Source of the DNA: Thermoplasmata archaeon
Lineage (GTDB): Archaea; Thermoplasmatota; Thermoplasmata; UBA10834
Length of the DNA stretch: 34,265 nt
NCBI GenBank assembly: GCA_025457815.1
Contig: JALOTQ010000006.1
Span: 1-34,265 of the forward strand
Direction: 5' to 3'
The notes beneath the pieces were generated by a model. That model was not told the origin of the DNA. It made no database searches and saw only the letters and a list, made by a program, of their open reading frames with translations. Position 1 is the first letter of the stretch, and the number at the start of each line of letters is the position of its first letter. The translations under genes and the position numbers were made by a program. Below, one piece after another: positions 13,894 through 29,435 of this stretch.

Positions 13894-13920
13894 GGGCCAC
13901 GCCTGCTGTTGACACCGACA

Positions 13921-15141
13921 ATGTCCGAAAGGCTCGCGATCGCAGGGCGAGCGCTTCAGCGCCCCTTGTGCAACCACTGCCTGGGAAGGCTTTTTGCATC
14001 CGTCTCCAGAGGCCTCTCGAACGATCAGAGGGGCATGATGGTCAGAGGGTCAGTGGATGGCGCCCCGGAGGCGCCCTCGGACATGTCGGAATGCTATCTG
14101 TGCAGAGGCCTGTTCTCCGAGGTGGCGAAGTTCGCCGACCTTGCTGTCAAGACATCCACGGGTTTCGAGTTCTCGACATTCCTTGTCGGGACCAAGATCG
14201 ACGCCGAGACCGTCGAGCGAGAGGAATCCTTCTGGACCGAGGTGGGAGCCAAGGAGACTGAGTCGATCAAGACCGAGATGAACAGGGAGATCGGCAAGCT
14301 CCTTGAGACGAGGCTCGACAAGCCCGTGGACTTCGCCAACCCCGACATGGTGTTCCTTGTAGACACGAGGTTTGACCAGGTGGTCCTCGACGTCGCACCG
14401 CTCTTCGTCTATGGAAGATACATGAAGAACTCCAGGGAGATGCCCCAAACCCGGTGGATGTGCAGGGAGTGCAGGGGCAAGGGTTGTCCCCACTGCTCGG
14501 GCAAGGGCCGGATGTACGAGACGAGCGTGCAAGACCATATCGGCCCCATCGTCATGAAGCGCGCTTCCGGGGAGGCCGAGTTCTTCCACGGGATGGGCCG
14601 GGAGGACATAGACGCCCGCATGCTGGGCAACGGGAGGCCGTTCGTCGCCGAGGTCAGGAGGCCGAGGGTGCGCAGCCTGGACCTCGGGCTGATACAGAGG
14701 GAGATCAACGAGGGCGGCAGGGGGGTGGTTGAGGTGGAGGGCATTCGCCCGTCCACAAGGGCTGAGATGAGGGCGATCAAGGAGGCCGCCCACTCCAAAA
14801 CTTACAGGGTCAGTGTGCGTTTCCAGGGCGATTTCGACCACGGAAAGCTTAATGAAGTAGTTACATCATTGGCCGAAAAGCCCATACGTCAGCAGACGCC
14901 AAACAGGGTAGCCCATCGGCGTGCCGACCTCGAGCGTGTCAGGGCCGTCAGGAACATCGCAGTCGAGTCCGTCAAGGACCGGGACGTGGTGTTCGTGGTT
15001 GAGGCGGACAGCGGAACGTACATCAAGGAACTGATGCACGGGGACGAGGGTCGGACTCAGCCGAACGTCGCGGCGATCGTCGGTGTGCCCTGCGAGGTGC
15101 TCGAGCTAGACGTCATCAGGATCGGAGACCAAGGGGAGTGA
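13921..15141 (+). CDS. pus10: tRNA pseudouridine(54/55) synthase Pus10
   Basis: LCNHCLGRLFA, CRECRGKGCPHCSGKGRMYE, FHGMGREDIDARMLGNGRPFVAEVRRPRVR. Confidence 0.93.
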   Translation: MSERLAIAGRALQRPLCNHCLGRLFASVSRGLSNDQRGMMVRGSVDGAPEAPSDMSECYLCRGLFSEVAKFADLAVKTSTGFEFSTFLVGTKIDAETVEREESFWTEVGAKETESIKTEMNREIGKLLETRLDKPVDFANPDMVFLVDTRFDQVVLDVAPLFVYGRYMKNSREMPQTRWMCRECRGKGCPHCSGKGRMYETSVQDHIGPIVMKRASGEAEFFHGMGREDIDARMLGNGRPFVAEVRRPRVRSLDLGLIQREINEGGRGVVEVEGIRPSTRAEMRAIKEAAHSKTYRVSVRFQGDFDHGKLNEVVTSLAEKPIRQQTPNRVAHRRADLERVRAVRNIAVESVKDRDVVFVVEADSGTYIKELMHGDEGRTQPNVAAIVGVPCEVLELDVIRIGDQGE

Positions 15142-23001: not shown

Positions 23002-23056
23002 AATACCGGGGATGTGCGCTCATGCGTGAACCCGAAAACGGCTGGATGTGAACACA

Positions 23057-23785
23057 ATGGCAGAAGAGGCGAAGAAGGCTCCCGCGAAGAAGGAGCGCAA
23101 GGTCAAGGAACCCGCTGAGGCGCCAGTTGAGGCGGCCCCGGCAGCGGCCCCCCAGACCGGGGCGGCAGCGCCCGAGGGCAAGAAGCCCGTCAGCGGCAAG
23201 AACATGTATCATTTTATGGGCGAGGCCTGGAAGGACCCTTCCAGCGACGCGATGAAGCAGCTGATGTGGCAGAGGCTCGTGGACTGGAGGAAGGAAGGCA
23301 CCTACGTCAGGGTCGACAAGCCGCTCAGGCTGGACAGGGCCAGGACGCTGGGATACAAGGCGAAACCAGGCGTGGTCGTTGTCCGCACGAAGGTCAGGAA
23401 GGGCGGCCTGAGAAAGCACAGGATCAAGAAGGGCCGCAGGCCGAAGAGGAAAGGTATTCTGAAGATCACCATGAGGAAGAACATCCAGAGGATCGCAGAG
23501 GAGAGGACGGCCAAGCGCTACCCGAACCTCGAGGTCCTCGCGTCCTACTGGGTCGGAGAGGACGGCAGGCACAAGTGGTTCGAGATCATCATGCTGGACC
23601 CCAACCACCCCGTCATCAAGTCGGACCCGAAGCTCAACTGGATCTGCTCGACGAAGCACGCCAACAGGGCCAACAGGGGCCTTACACCGGCGGGCAAGAA
23701 GGGCAGGGGCTTAGTGAGGACCCGTGGGATGGGAGTGGAGAAGAACCGACCGTCCCTCAGGGCGCACAACAGGCAGGGTACCTAG
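23057..23785 (+). CDS. rpl15e: Large ribosomal subunit protein L15e with Lys/Ala/Pro-rich N-terminal extension
   Basis: Core from MYHFMGEAWKDP; RLVDWRKEGTYVRVDKPLRLDRARTLGYKAKPGVVVVRTKVRKGGLRKHRIKKGRRPKRKG; ~50 extra N-terminal residues. Confidence 0.93.
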   Translation: MAEEAKKAPAKKERKVKEPAEAPVEAAPAAAPQTGAAAPEGKKPVSGKNMYHFMGEAWKDPSSDAMKQLMWQRLVDWRKEGTYVRVDKPLRLDRARTLGYKAKPGVVVVRTKVRKGGLRKHRIKKGRRPKRKGILKITMRKNIQRIAEERTAKRYPNLEVLASYWVGEDGRHKWFEIIMLDPNHPVIKSDPKLNWICSTKHANRANRGLTPAGKKGRGLVRTRGMGVEKNRPSLRAHNRQGT

Positions 23786-24651
23786 GACAGTACCCTCGCC
23801 AGCAAACTCCTTATTTCATCTTCATTCATGCCGACCAAGGGATAGAAGACTGGCAGGTCGCCCTTGGGAGCTCCTTCTGTCTCGATCTCGTGTAGCGACC
23901 ACTCGAACGCGATCCCAGTGCACTCGTTCTCCTCGGCCTGTATGAACGGGCTCGCACTCCTTTCAGCAGTTCTGAGATGAGGGTTCCAGACGTTCAGAGG
24001 GGCGAGCATCGCCTGGTCTTGGGCCGCCACGAGGACGCTGCACCCCCGCTTCATCATGAGCCAGGTGGCTGCAAGCCCCCTCTCCGATTCGACCACGGAG
24101 AGTATCCTCCCCTGCGTCCCCAGGGGCATCCCTCCCGGGCCCGCGAGCGTCGAGCTGAACAGGTAGGCCTTGTTGTCCCTCACCTCGACCGAGAGCTCGA
24201 TCTCCGGCTCCTCGAGCCTCACCTTGACATTCAACGAGGAGTACCTGTCGAGCACCGCCCTCCCGAGATGCTCGGCAAGGGTCTGGCTCGTGTACTTGTG
24301 GCTTCCTGACCTGCGGGCCCGGATCGCGAACGTCGCGCCCTCGCACATGAGCGGTTCCGAGAACTCAAGGGCCGCCTTCGTGAGCTCGTCGAGGTCGCTC
24401 CCGACCACGGTCACGGGGCTGAAAGACACTATTCCGAAGGTCCTCGAGAGTATCTCGCTCGATTTCCTCCAGTCGTCGGAATCCACGAAGATCCTGCCTC
24501 TGGCCTGGGATATCACGCACGGAACCTTCGCCAGAGCGTGCCTGGTGCGGATATCGGCCACGAGCTGTTGCTCGAACCTCCTGCGGACGGACTCGCTCTT
24601 GAGCCCTATCTCCCCGTACCTCACCAGCAGGGTAGGCATCGGATGCTCCAT
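23782..24651 (-). CDS. ThiI-like THUMP-domain protein with degenerate, truncated PP-loop domain
   Basis: LLVRYGEIGLKSESVRRRFEQQL (ThiI N-terminus), THUMP region, LAGPGGMPLGTQGRILSVVESERGLAATWLMMKRGC. Alternative start MPTLL at 24639. Confidence 0.85.
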   Translation of the reverse strand: MEHPMPTLLVRYGEIGLKSESVRRRFEQQLVADIRTRHALAKVPCVISQARGRIFVDSDDWRKSSEILSRTFGIVSFSPVTVVGSDLDELTKAALEFSEPLMCEGATFAIRARRSGSHKYTSQTLAEHLGRAVLDRYSSLNVKVRLEEPEIELSVEVRDNKAYLFSSTLAGPGGMPLGTQGRILSVVESERGLAATWLMMKRGCSVLVAAQDQAMLAPLNVWNPHLRTAERSASPFIQAEENECTGIAFEWSLHEIETEGAPKGDLPVFYPLVGMNEDEIRSLLARVLS

Positions 24652-24755: not shown

Positions 24756-26114
24756 TTGAACACAAGTCGAAAAGCAAAGGTTTCTTTGAAAAGAGTGTGT
24801 GAAGTACCCGGACCAAAGGCAAAAGCTTGGGTGAAGCGAGACAACGCGGTTCTGTCGCCGTACAACAGGCCCTACTACTACCCGATGGTGGTCGAGAAGG
24901 GCAAGGGTTGCATCATAGAGGACGTCGACGGGAACGAGTACATCGACTTCAACAGCGGTCTCGGGGCGATGAACGTCGGCCACTGCCACCCAGAGGTGGT
25001 TGAGGCCATCAAGAAGCAGTCGGAGCGCCTGCTGCACTACTCGTACACGGACTTCTACTACCGGTATGCGGTGGAGCTCGGCGAGAAACTGCAGAAGATC
25101 ACGCCCGGAAGCTTCGCGAAGAAGGTCTTCCTGAGCGGGAGCGGTGCCGAGAGCATTGAGGCATTCGCCAAGGTCTCCAGATGGCACTCGAAGCGGCCGC
25201 AGTTCCTGGCATTCACAGGAGCTTTCCACGGAAGGTCGATGGGCGCGTTGAGCTTCACGGCAAGCTCGATAGGCCAGAAGGCGAGGTACTTCCCCACCAT
25301 GCCGGGTGTGGAGCACGTCCCGTTCGCCTACTGCTACAGGTGCCCGTACAAGCAGACCTACCCGGAATGCAACTTCTGGTGTGTCGACTTCATAGACGAC
25401 TGGCTCTTCAAGAAGTTCCTGCCGCCCCAGGAGGTCGCGGCAGCGCTGATAGAGCCGATCCAGGGCGAGGGCGGATACATCGTCCCGCCAAAGGATTACC
25501 ACAGGAGGCTGAAGAAGCTCCTGGACAAGCACGGCATCCTGTTCGCGGTGGACGAGGTCCAGTCCGGCATGGGCAGGACCGGCAAGTGGTGCGCCATCGA
25601 GAACTTCGGGGTCGTGCCAGACATCGTCTGCATGTCGAAGGCGCTCGGAGGCGGCATATCGCTCGGAGCGACCATCGGACGCGCGGAGATATACGACTGG
25701 TCCCCTGGTTCGCACTGCACGACCCTGGGCGGCACGCCTGTCGCATGCGAGGCGTCCTTGGCTACCATGAGAGTCATCGAGAAGGAGAAGCTGAGGGAGA
25801 ACGCGGTCAAGCAGGGCGACTATGCGGTCAAGAGGCTCAGGGAATGGATCGACCAGTATGAGATCGTCGGCGATGTCCGCGGCAAGGGCCTCATGATAGG
25901 TGTCGAGATAATCAAGGACAAGAAGTCCAAGGAGAAGGACGGCGACACCGCCCACGAGATCATCGAGCACGCGTGGCACAAGGGAGTGGTGGCCATCGGA
26001 GCGGGTGAGAACTGCTTCAGGATCGCCCCGCCACTGTGCATCACGCGCGACCTGATGGACGCTGGCCTGGACATGCTCGAGGACTCGATCAAGGAGGTCA
26101 TGCGCAAGAAGTGA
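24756..26114 (+). CDS. Class III (acetylornithine/GABA/beta-alanine-type) PLP aminotransferase
   Basis: FLSGSGAESIEAFAKVSRW, GAFHGRSMGALSFT, EPIQGEGGYIVPPKDY, FAVDEVQSGMGRTGKWCA, MSKALGGG; TTG start, exact start uncertain. Confidence 0.92.
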   Translation: MNTSRKAKVSLKRVCEVPGPKAKAWVKRDNAVLSPYNRPYYYPMVVEKGKGCIIEDVDGNEYIDFNSGLGAMNVGHCHPEVVEAIKKQSERLLHYSYTDFYYRYAVELGEKLQKITPGSFAKKVFLSGSGAESIEAFAKVSRWHSKRPQFLAFTGAFHGRSMGALSFTASSIGQKARYFPTMPGVEHVPFAYCYRCPYKQTYPECNFWCVDFIDDWLFKKFLPPQEVAAALIEPIQGEGGYIVPPKDYHRRLKKLLDKHGILFAVDEVQSGMGRTGKWCAIENFGVVPDIVCMSKALGGGISLGATIGRAEIYDWSPGSHCTTLGGTPVACEASLATMRVIEKEKLRENAVKQGDYAVKRLREWIDQYEIVGDVRGKGLMIGVEIIKDKKSKEKDGDTAHEIIEHAWHKGVVAIGAGENCFRIAPPLCITRDLMDAGLDMLEDSIKEVMRKK

Positions 26115-26191
26115 GCCGCTCGCAGGACGAGCGGTTCCCCGAAACCCTTTATCATTCTCATCTATCGGGGAACAAGAAGGAGTATGGTACA

Positions 26192-27550
26192 TTGGTCAAG
26201 AAGTACAACCTGAAGGGTCCCAAGATAGTGGTGGAGCCGCCAGGACCCAAGGCTAAGAAGGCGTTGGCTCGGAAGGAGAAGTACGTCACGAACGGCATCA
26301 GGATCGGCCTCCCGACGGCACTCGACGTGGCCGAGGGACCGTTCATGAGGGATGTCGACGGGAACGTGTTCCTGGACTTCACGGTCGGTATCGGAGTCCA
26401 CAACTGCGGCCACAGGGCGCCGGAGTTCGTGAAGGCGTGCCAGGACCAGCTGGACAAGTTCGTGCACATCTGCGTGATGGTGACGCCGTACGAGCCCTAT
26501 CTTGAGCTCGCGGAGGAGATGGCCAAGATCTGCCCGGGCAAGATGACTAAGAGCATCTTCCTGAACAGCGGGTCGGAGGCGATCGAGAACGCGGTCAAGA
26601 TCGCGCGGTCGTACAACAAGAAGAAGTGGATACTGTCGTACAAGACTTCGTTCCACGGCAGGACATTCCTGGACATATCTCTGACAGGCAAGGAGAAGCC
26701 CTACAGGGACGGCTTCGGGCCGCTGGTGCCGTACATCCAGCACCTGGACTACGCGTACTGCTACAGATGCCCGCTCAAGCTGGAGTACCCGTCATGTAAC
26801 TTCGCGTGCGTCGACAGCATCCGCACGGTCATGGAGACCAAGCCCATGGAGGGCGACGTCTGCGCCTTGGTGGCAGAGCCGATCCAGGGTGAGGGAGGGT
26901 TCATCAACCCGCCCCCGGGCTACTGGGAGAAGGTCAGGAAGGTCTGCGACGACAACGGCGTGGTGCTCATCGACGACGAGGTCCAGACGGGCTTCGGCAG
27001 GACCGGCAAGATGTGGGGCATCGAGCACTGGAAGTGCGACCCCGACATGCTCGTGTCCGGAAAGGGCCTGTCCCTGGGGATGCCCCTCGGTGGCGTGACG
27101 GGCAAGGAGGACATCATGGCCTCTCCGCCGCCCGCAAGCCTTGGCGGCACATTCGGAGGCAACCCTGTCTGTTGCGCGGGCGCGCTCGCGTCAATAAAGC
27201 TGACCAAGAAGGCGATGCCCAACACGAAGATGATCAACAAGGTCGAGAAGAAGCGGCTCATGGAGTGGAAGGAGCAGTACGAGTGGGTCGGGGACGTCAG
27301 GGGACTCGGCGCGATGCTCGGCATGGAGTTCGTGAAGACGAAGGCGAGCAAGGAGGCTGTGCCCGAGTTCACAAGGAACGTGCAGCTGAACTGCTTCAAG
27401 CACGGGCTATACATTCTCACGGCCGGGCAGTTCAACAACGTCATACGGCTGCACCCGCCGCTGATCATCAAGCAGGACCTTCTCGAGAAGGGCCTCGACA
27501 TCATCGAGGCGGCCATGGTAGAAGAGGCCAAGAAGGCAGGCTTTAGCTGA
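26192..27550 (+). CDS. Class III PLP aminotransferase, paralogue of the upstream gene
   Basis: FLNSGSEAIENAVKIARSYN, TSFHGRTFLDISLTGK, EPIQGEGGFINPPPGYW, LIDDEVQTGFGRTGKMW, SGKGLSLGMPL; TTG start with upstream AAGGAG; ORF track extends to 26036. Confidence 0.92.
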   Translation: MVKKYNLKGPKIVVEPPGPKAKKALARKEKYVTNGIRIGLPTALDVAEGPFMRDVDGNVFLDFTVGIGVHNCGHRAPEFVKACQDQLDKFVHICVMVTPYEPYLELAEEMAKICPGKMTKSIFLNSGSEAIENAVKIARSYNKKKWILSYKTSFHGRTFLDISLTGKEKPYRDGFGPLVPYIQHLDYAYCYRCPLKLEYPSCNFACVDSIRTVMETKPMEGDVCALVAEPIQGEGGFINPPPGYWEKVRKVCDDNGVVLIDDEVQTGFGRTGKMWGIEHWKCDPDMLVSGKGLSLGMPLGGVTGKEDIMASPPPASLGGTFGGNPVCCAGALASIKLTKKAMPNTKMINKVEKKRLMEWKEQYEWVGDVRGLGAMLGMEFVKTKASKEAVPEFTRNVQLNCFKHGLYILTAGQFNNVIRLHPPLIIKQDLLEKGLDIIEAAMVEEAKKAGFS

Positions 27551-27953
27551 AGGCGTGCCCGATCGGTCAAACCCCTTACCTTCTCCTTTCACCTTTGATT
27601 CTTCGTCCAGAGCCCTCTGTCGGCCGTTGTTCGATGGATGATTACGAATTTCGCATCTTGTTTCATGGGGGTTTGGGGCGGTCTGTCGGTCGTCATGTTC
27701 CTGTGCGGCCAGCATTCCCTGGAACGAACCCCTCAGGGTGACCCCCAGCTGCTCTGTTTACACAGCAATCTATATTACCGGGGAGCACATACCGGCGAAA
27801 TAGGCCGAAAATTCCTGATGCATCTGCAGATTTGGGCCTAAGAATCTGAATATCTTCCGAACATCGAGATGCAATCAAGAAAGTTGCGGGGGAGGAGGCG
27901 CAGGAGTTCTTGGCCTAGTGGTAGAGAGACGTCTACTTGGGAGAACAGATATA

Positions 27954-29435
27954 ATGGCGCTTTTGACTGAAGTCCAGAAGAACTACGGGAAGCTGAAGAA
28001 CTACGTGAACGGGGAGTGGGTTGATTCCACTACCGACAAGTGGTTGGATATCGAGAACCCCTCGACCGGAGCGACAATCGGGCAGGTGCCCATGTCCACC
28101 GCCGACGAAACGAAGGCCGCGATTGAGGCGGCGAACGAAGCCTGGTGGACGTGGAGAGAGACCCCTCCGATAGCCCGGGCGCGGTTGTTCTTCAAGCTCA
28201 AGGAACTGATGGAACAGCATTTTGAGAACGTGGCCAGGATAATGGTTCAAGAGCAGGGCAAGACGATCGACGAGGCAAGAGGGGAGACGAGAAGAGCCAT
28301 CGAGAACGTCGAGGTCGCAGCTGGAATACCGTCCTTGATGATGGGCTACAATCTCGAGGACGGCGCTGCGGAGGGCATAGACGAAGACGCCATCATCTCG
28401 CCTCTGGGCGTTTTCGGTGCCATCTGTCCATTCAACTTCCCCGCCATGATCCCGTTCTGGTTCTGGCCCTATGCGGTTGCCACGGGCAACACCTACCTCG
28501 TCAAGCCGTCCAGCCAGGTGCCGCTGACGATGAACTACCTGACGAAGATAGTCGAGCAGGCTGGCTTCCCGCCCGGGATTCTGAACGTCGTGAATGGAAG
28601 TCACGAAGTATCGGACACCATGATGGAGCACCCGAAAGTGAAGGGGATTTCCTTCGTCGGCTCGACGCCCGTTGCGAAGTACATCTACAAGCACTCGGCC
28701 GAGAACGGCAAGAGAGTGCAGGCCCAAGGCGGGGCGAAGAACTCTCTGGTGATCATGCCCGACGCCAACCTCGACAGGACGGTCGCGAACATGCTCGCCT
28801 CCTACTACGGATGCGCCGGCCAGAGATGCCTCGCAGGGTCGAACATGATCGCTGTTGGGAACGTAGCGGATCCACTGCTGAAGAAGTGGCTTGAGGGGAC
28901 GAGGAAGATCAAGATGGGCTATGGTCTCGATGAGAGCGTCAACATGGGTCCAGTGGTCTCCGCGAAGGCGAAGAAGAAGGTAATCGAGTACATAGACGGC
29001 GCGGAGAAGCAGGGCGCGAAGGTTCTAATCGACGGGAGAAAGGCGGTGGTCCCGGGATACGAGAAGGGGCACTTCGTGGGCCCGACCGTAATCGACGGGG
29101 TCACGCCAGACATGACAATCGCCAACGAAGAGGTCTTCGGACCAGTCGTGAGCTTCATGCGCATGGAATCGATGGATGATGCGATAGAGTTCATCCACAA
29201 GAGCCCGTTCGGAAACGCCGCCTCGATCTACACGCAGAGCGGCAAATCGGCGAGGGACTTCAGGTACCGCGTGCAGTGCGGGAACATCGGCATCAACGTC
29301 GGTATCGTCGCCGCGATGGCATACTTCCCGTTCGCGGGATACAAGGACTCCTTCTTCGGTGACCTACACGGCCAGGGTCAGGACGCCATAAAGTTCTTCA
29401 CCGACAGAAAGGTTGTCATCACCCGGTGGTACTGA
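27954..29435 (+). CDS. CoA-acylating methylmalonate-/malonate-semialdehyde dehydrogenase family (ALDH superfamily)
   Basis: MMSDH-type sequence: VNGEWVDSTTDKWLDIENPSTGATIGQVPMST, LGVFGAICPFNFPAMIPFWFWPYAVATGNTYLVKPS, YGCAGQRCLAGSNMIAVG, PFAGYKDSFFGDLHGQGQDAIKFFTDRKVV. Confidence 0.9.
   Translation: MALLTEVQKNYGKLKNYVNGEWVDSTTDKWLDIENPSTGATIGQVPMSTADETKAAIEAANEAWWTWRETPPIARARLFFKLKELMEQHFENVARIMVQEQGKTIDEARGETRRAIENVEVAAGIPSLMMGYNLEDGAAEGIDEDAIISPLGVFGAICPFNFPAMIPFWFWPYAVATGNTYLVKPSSQVPLTMNYLTKIVEQAGFPPGILNVVNGSHEVSDTMMEHPKVKGISFVGSTPVAKYIYKHSAENGKRVQAQGGAKNSLVIMPDANLDRTVANMLASYYGCAGQRCLAGSNMIAVGNVADPLLKKWLEGTRKIKMGYGLDESVNMGPVVSAKAKKKVIEYIDGAEKQGAKVLIDGRKAVVPGYEKGHFVGPTVIDGVTPDMTIANEEVFGPVVSFMRMESMDDAIEFIHKSPFGNAASIYTQSGKSARDFRYRVQCGNIGINVGIVAAMAYFPFAGYKDSFFGDLHGQGQDAIKFFTDRKVVITRWY

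Follow-up and report, generated by a model that had tools for sequence, protein, structure and literature searches.

In descriptions so far, 4-thiouridine at position 8 of tRNA (s4U8) is made by a single polypeptide, which acts as a homodimer. The window, i.e., the whole stretch of 34,265 nucleotides analysed here (contig JALOTQ010000006.1 of a Thermoplasmata archaeon), encodes a ThiI-like protein from which the SGGxDSP PP-loop has been lost. The question raised by this locus is what such a protein does. The preliminary description had proposed a pseudoenzyme that binds tRNA and may assist a separate thiolase, and this proposal is supported: a stand-alone catalytic half of ThiI was found in the same genome. 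The reading retained here, with a probability of about 0.8, is that of an s4U8 synthetase made of two polypeptides, in which the window protein binds the tRNA. It can be inferred that the two chains form a heteromer, that the window protein has a docking role and that the product is s4U8.

Features of the window gene and of the gene that overlaps its end (positions are those of the window, residues those of the window protein)
Feature	Position	Strand	Remarks
ThiI-like THUMP subunit (S)	23782..24651	(-)	289 aa, without PP-loop; class-wide homologues
Ferredoxin-like domain (Pfam ThiI_fer), N-terminal	24418..24630	(-)	residues 8-78; E 1.4e-15, over cut-off
THUMP domain (Pfam)	24157..24399	(-)	residues 85-165; E 1.4e-14, over cut-off; binding of the tRNA 3'-CCA expected
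Degenerate, truncated PP-loop (pyrophosphatase) domain	23785..24129	(-)	residues 175-289; proposed docking surface
SVVESERG at the site of the lost SGGxDSP PP-loop	24076..24099	(-)	residues 185-192; from alignment
Ribosomal protein L15e	23048..23785	(+)	convergent; 4 bp overlap with the stop of the THUMP half; context, outside the proposed system

Read as an ORF, the frame of the window gene is open across all its 289 codons. Translation may begin at residue 5 (ATG at 24639), since the relatives begin at this second ATG (MPTLLVRYGE). The L15e gene is kept as a neighbour at 76 of the 141 homologous loci, and no tRNA gene was found in the sampled loci. The region 24756-29435 (+) holds two class-III aminotransferases, then an ORF (27918-29435) that can be read as a putative aldehyde dehydrogenase.

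The ThiI N-terminal and THUMP regions had been described as intact, and both Pfam models indeed score over their cut-offs. The PP-loop domain PF02568 gives 13.2 bits (cut-off 20.5), and full ThiI (TIGR00342) gives 127.9 bits (cut-off 264.5), with a match that stops at position 200 of 373. The linker GPGGMPLGTQG connects the THUMP domain to the dead PP-loop-type domain, in which the region of the lost loop reads RIL-SVVESERG-LAATWLMMKRGC. The letters SVVESERG reported before in place of SGGxDSP are right; in the alignment the loop is one residue shorter than the SGGIDSPVA of fused ThiI relatives. The PP-loop of T. maritima ThiI (S182-G-G-I-D-S187) aligns to E-S-E-R-G-L of the window protein, and the residues by which the T. 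maritima loop makes contact with the ATP phosphates have been replaced. The dimer-interface loop GESLGQVASQT and the catalytic cysteines are also absent from the dead domain in the alignment; loop and cysteines are present in the partner described below. With both loops (the ATP loop and GESLGQVASQT) and every catalytic cysteine gone, the known route of U8 activation is closed to the window protein, as had been anticipated. The early end of the protein is correct as regards its length. It is not a mere ragged end: what remains of the PP-loop domain at the C-terminus is compact, and the AlphaFold model of the whole protein is one compact fold (mean pLDDT 93.3). The dead domain has conserved residues of its own and is kept through the phylum.

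A search of the genome of the window with PF02568 gave a stand-alone ThiI PP-loop domain of 208 aa (contig C111:774-1400, locus L042), which matches the model at positions 5-196 of 197 (E 1e-61). This catalytic half carries SGGIDSPVAGYL at its N-terminus, CVLC, GESLGQVASQTL and GLCCTIAPKKP, with SGGIDSP intact, and its AlphaFold model is one compact domain (pLDDT 94.7). The PP-loop is kept in all complete catalytic halves and in no THUMP half. The THUMP and catalytic genes are unlinked in this genome. No second intact full-length ThiI was found there, the protein search returning the window protein alone. An NcsA/TtuA-type PP-loop protein (L041) could in principle also be the partner, but it is a member of the general PP-loop family, and the dedicated ThiI-type domain is the stronger candidate. 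Frames of 571 and 603 aa (L062 and L063) were considered as fusions of the catalytic half; no second domain was recognised in them, and their length seems to come from reading through a G+C-rich frame that is non-coding.

The motif CxxC plus C is reportedly, from the 2022 work of He et al., the signature of those archaeal TtuI enzymes which work with a [4Fe-4S] cluster. It is present in 28 of the 31 catalytic halves of the first set, including that of the genome of the window, and absent from the catalytic halves of family f9 and from the divergent f32, f38 and f42 sequences examined. A [4Fe-4S] cluster has been reported in the TtuI of M. maripaludis and P. furiosus (PMC9957541). The catalytic half resembles these archaeal enzymes by the motif, and the cluster itself is predicted.

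At C111:774-1400 the catalytic half is flanked by an E1/ThiF-like gene, immediately upstream, and by a Nob1-like gene, downstream, in an apparent operon. In 13 of 51 loci, from three families including that of the window, an E1/ThiF-like gene lies immediately next to the catalytic half, and a Nob1-like nuclease is often near. E1 enzymes load ubiquitin-like sulfur carriers. ThiS-like proteins are present in the genome of the window and, taken with the E1 neighbour, make a carrier-fed route for sulfur plausible.

Co-occurrence was examined in 147 Thermoplasmatota genomes of completeness at least 85%. Both halves are found in 77 genomes, the THUMP half only in 6, the catalytic half only in 2 and neither in about 35. 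A fused ThiI is present in 27 of the 147, and in none of these 27 does a complete half stand apart; the additional catalytic half seen in one of them (G090) is probably the remaining piece of a ThiI gene interrupted by a contig end. The co-occurrence gives a Fisher p of about 1e-21, a value that overstates the case since the genomes are related. A single half was detected in G079, G092, G105, G108, G141 and G158, and in G100 and G155. The six genomes with the THUMP half only are all incomplete assemblies, most of them with congeners having both halves; it is likely that assembly gaps explain them. Presence varies within the families f32 and f38, where a DNA-polymerase tree gives 5 independent pairs with a difference in the THUMP half. 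In 4 of these pairs the catalytic half changes along with it, in 1 it shows no difference and in none does it change in the opposite way (too few for significance). The joint loss in these two families is not one deletion, because the two genes lie apart in them; in the genome G070 (a single contig) the distance is more than 0.9 Mb.

According to the reading retained here, the THUMP half would grip the acceptor stem and the CCA end of the tRNA. Its dead PP-loop domain would offer a docking site to the free catalytic half, which would take the place that the second PP-loop domain has in homodimeric ThiI. In that homodimer the two chains meet mainly through their pyrophosphatase domains (PMC4041423). 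U8 would then be placed in the active site of the partner and adenylated by it. The sulfur would be delivered by the catalytic half through its Fe-S cluster and, in lineages with an adjoining E1 gene, would probably be supplied by an E1/ubiquitin-like carrier. Such an arrangement of split chains would need no new geometry, as homodimeric ThiI already works in trans.

As regards the binding of tRNA, R11 and K18 of the THUMP half are invariant, and R23 and G52-R53 nearly so. These residues match RNA-facing positions of ThiI, K18 and R23 being K17 and R21 of the T. maritima enzyme. The CCA contacts of T. maritima ThiI are partly lost (K104 is replaced by A, Y119 by Q, and R141 varies), so that the recognition of CCA may differ in detail. 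These unlike residues are consistent with an alternative in which the complex is as proposed and the product is not, or not only, s4U8 (e.g., s4U9, or a site in another RNA). It must be noticed that tRNA of Thermoplasma acidophilum has both s4U8 and s4U9 and that the enzyme for s4U9 is uncertain (PMC6313347). This alternative is nevertheless unlikely: the two halves are recognisably ThiI over their whole length, and on the tree the split arrangement and ordinary ThiI take each other's place.

In the tree of the N-terminal half, all Thermoplasmatota THUMP halves fall in one group (support 100/97), together with the fused ThiI of family f18 (L070-L072, L202, L203), which bears a rhodanese domain. 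Family f23 (L169-L176) has both fused (377-408 aa) and split members. The mixture in f23 and the placement of the f18 N-terminal half imply that fusion or fission, or transfer, occurred more than once, and for the catalytic halves at least two changes of state are required. In family f9 (L035, L038, L040) the catalytic half without CxxC branches near bacterial ThiI, and the THUMP half is ordinary and lies in its own clade. This suggests, from the sequences, that the catalytic partner was exchanged in f9. One genome (G152; L179, L180, L181) has two copies of each half, one pair being adjacent and divergent; a substrate specialisation of the duplicated halves is possible.

In another alternative, the THUMP protein serves as adaptor to some other enzyme of tRNA modification, and the free PP-loop domain acts alone or elsewhere. 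A THUMP adaptor in trans is an established arrangement, i.e., Tan1/THUMPD1 for the acetyltransferase Kre33/NAT10 (PMC9957541). No separate Tan1-like protein was found by the THUMP search in the genome of the window, where the other THUMP match is a Pus10-like protein only. In the window itself, 13909-15141 (+) encodes an archaeal Pus10-like protein carrying its own THUMP domain. That the window protein serves another enzyme is however very unlikely, for three reasons: (i) the THUMP half co-occurs with the ThiI catalytic domain, and the genomes with fused ThiI are without both; (ii) in two genomes the two halves form a tandem operon, which speaks against such a role; (iii) a remnant of a ThiI-type PP-loop domain is kept, whereas Tan1 has not been described with one. 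The operon is seen at the Methanomethylophilaceae-like loci L125 and L130, where the THUMP half is followed, after a 4-bp gap and on the same strand, by the catalytic half, i.e., in the order of the fused enzyme. It was called from gene order; L126 was left out, its catalytic frame being incomplete. By description, Tan1/THUMPD1 consists of the ferredoxin-like and THUMP parts only, and the window protein adds a conserved third part that is PP-loop-domain-like.

The state without PP-loop is common to the THUMP halves of the phylum. A detectable match to the window protein was obtained in 54 of 60 relatives, a few of these matches being fused ThiI. In the first aligned set the PP-loop is present in none of 41 THUMP halves and in 4 of 4 fused ThiI. 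The motif S[GPSD]GxDS occurs in 0 of 141 homologous loci of the phylum Thermoplasmatota, a number that includes some genomes fetched twice. For unsaturated pairs of homologues (dS 0.11-0.48, the calculation being restricted to pairs with dS under 0.5), dN/dS is about 0.14-0.18, and both halves are under purifying selection. The preliminary description had held the clean frame against a recent pseudogene and had named two possible refuters of its reading, i.e., an intact SGGxDS in orthologues and relaxed selection (dN/dS near 1). None of the orthologues keeps SGGxDS, and selection is far from relaxed. The motif count, the open frame and the dN/dS values rule out a recent pseudogene or a sequencing error. 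Although the catalytic motif is lost and the C-terminus truncated, the same evidence, with the conserved residues of the dead domain, makes it hardly credible that the protein is an inert relic or a decaying gene kept by chance. Against the related option, in which the THUMP domain would explain why a relic is kept, stand the conservation of the dead domain through the phylum and the co-occurrence of the gene with the free catalytic domain.

The two-polypeptide synthetase can be compared with several known systems. ThiI/TtuI (COG0301, TIGR00342; PDB 2C5S, 4KR6/4KR7) is one polypeptide, whereas here there are two, the THUMP half having an additional dead PP-loop domain. Taken together, the ferredoxin-like and THUMP parts of the window protein and the separate PP-loop gene account for the enzyme in full. 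In NCBIfam the catalytic half best matches NF006222 (PRK08349, «hypothetical protein», 198 positions), also a ThiI-type PP-loop domain that stands alone; the score of 216.8 bits is below the curated cut-off of 251. In Ncs6-Ncs2 (Ctu1-Ctu2) and Tan1-Kre33 (THUMPD1-NAT10), which were compared from the literature, a catalytic protein also works with a non-catalytic partner, as proposed here, but at other positions and with other chemistries, and the proteins are non-orthologous. No description of a split ThiI was found in the literature; subscription journals were mostly outside the search, so that this absence is no proof.

Among solved structures, the best match of the model of the window protein (Foldseek) is 1VBK, i.e., PH1313 of Pyrococcus horikoshii, over the whole length (TM 0.84/0.80), followed by ThiI of B. 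anthracis and T. maritima. PH1313 resembles the window protein by its three-part architecture, the lack of a PP-loop, the same loop length and a shortened C-terminal domain; the two sequences share only 28% identity. In the tree of the N-terminal half, a well-supported branch separates PH1313 from the Thermoplasmatota clade, PH1313 being one distant sequence on a long branch. A single origin with PH1313 thus receives no support from the tree. PH1313 and the Thermoplasmatota clade may have lost the loop separately, and the placement of PH1313 may also be a long-branch effect. In a 2023 review, PH1313 is a «ThiI-like protein» without known activity (PMC9957541).

The proposed split ThiI would be a new form of a known enzyme, the type of protein without PP-loop being already known structurally (PH1313, 1VBK). 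The odds are about even for a wider reading, i.e., a phylum-wide two-protein thiolase in which the dead PP-loop domain, as a platform for docking, brings the tRNA to a free, exchangeable Fe-S catalytic subunit, and which may also explain PH1313. Read gene by gene, the two halves are likely to be annotated by error as a broken ThiI or as two partial ones; together they make a complete ThiI. The split suggests a function for the PH1313 structure, released in 2005, and for the «hypothetical protein» family NF006222. A natural split in which the order of the parts is preserved and a pseudoenzyme domain is kept would directly test the trans-dimer model of ThiI, i.e., which half binds the tRNA, which half activates U8 and what the role of the second PP-loop domain is.
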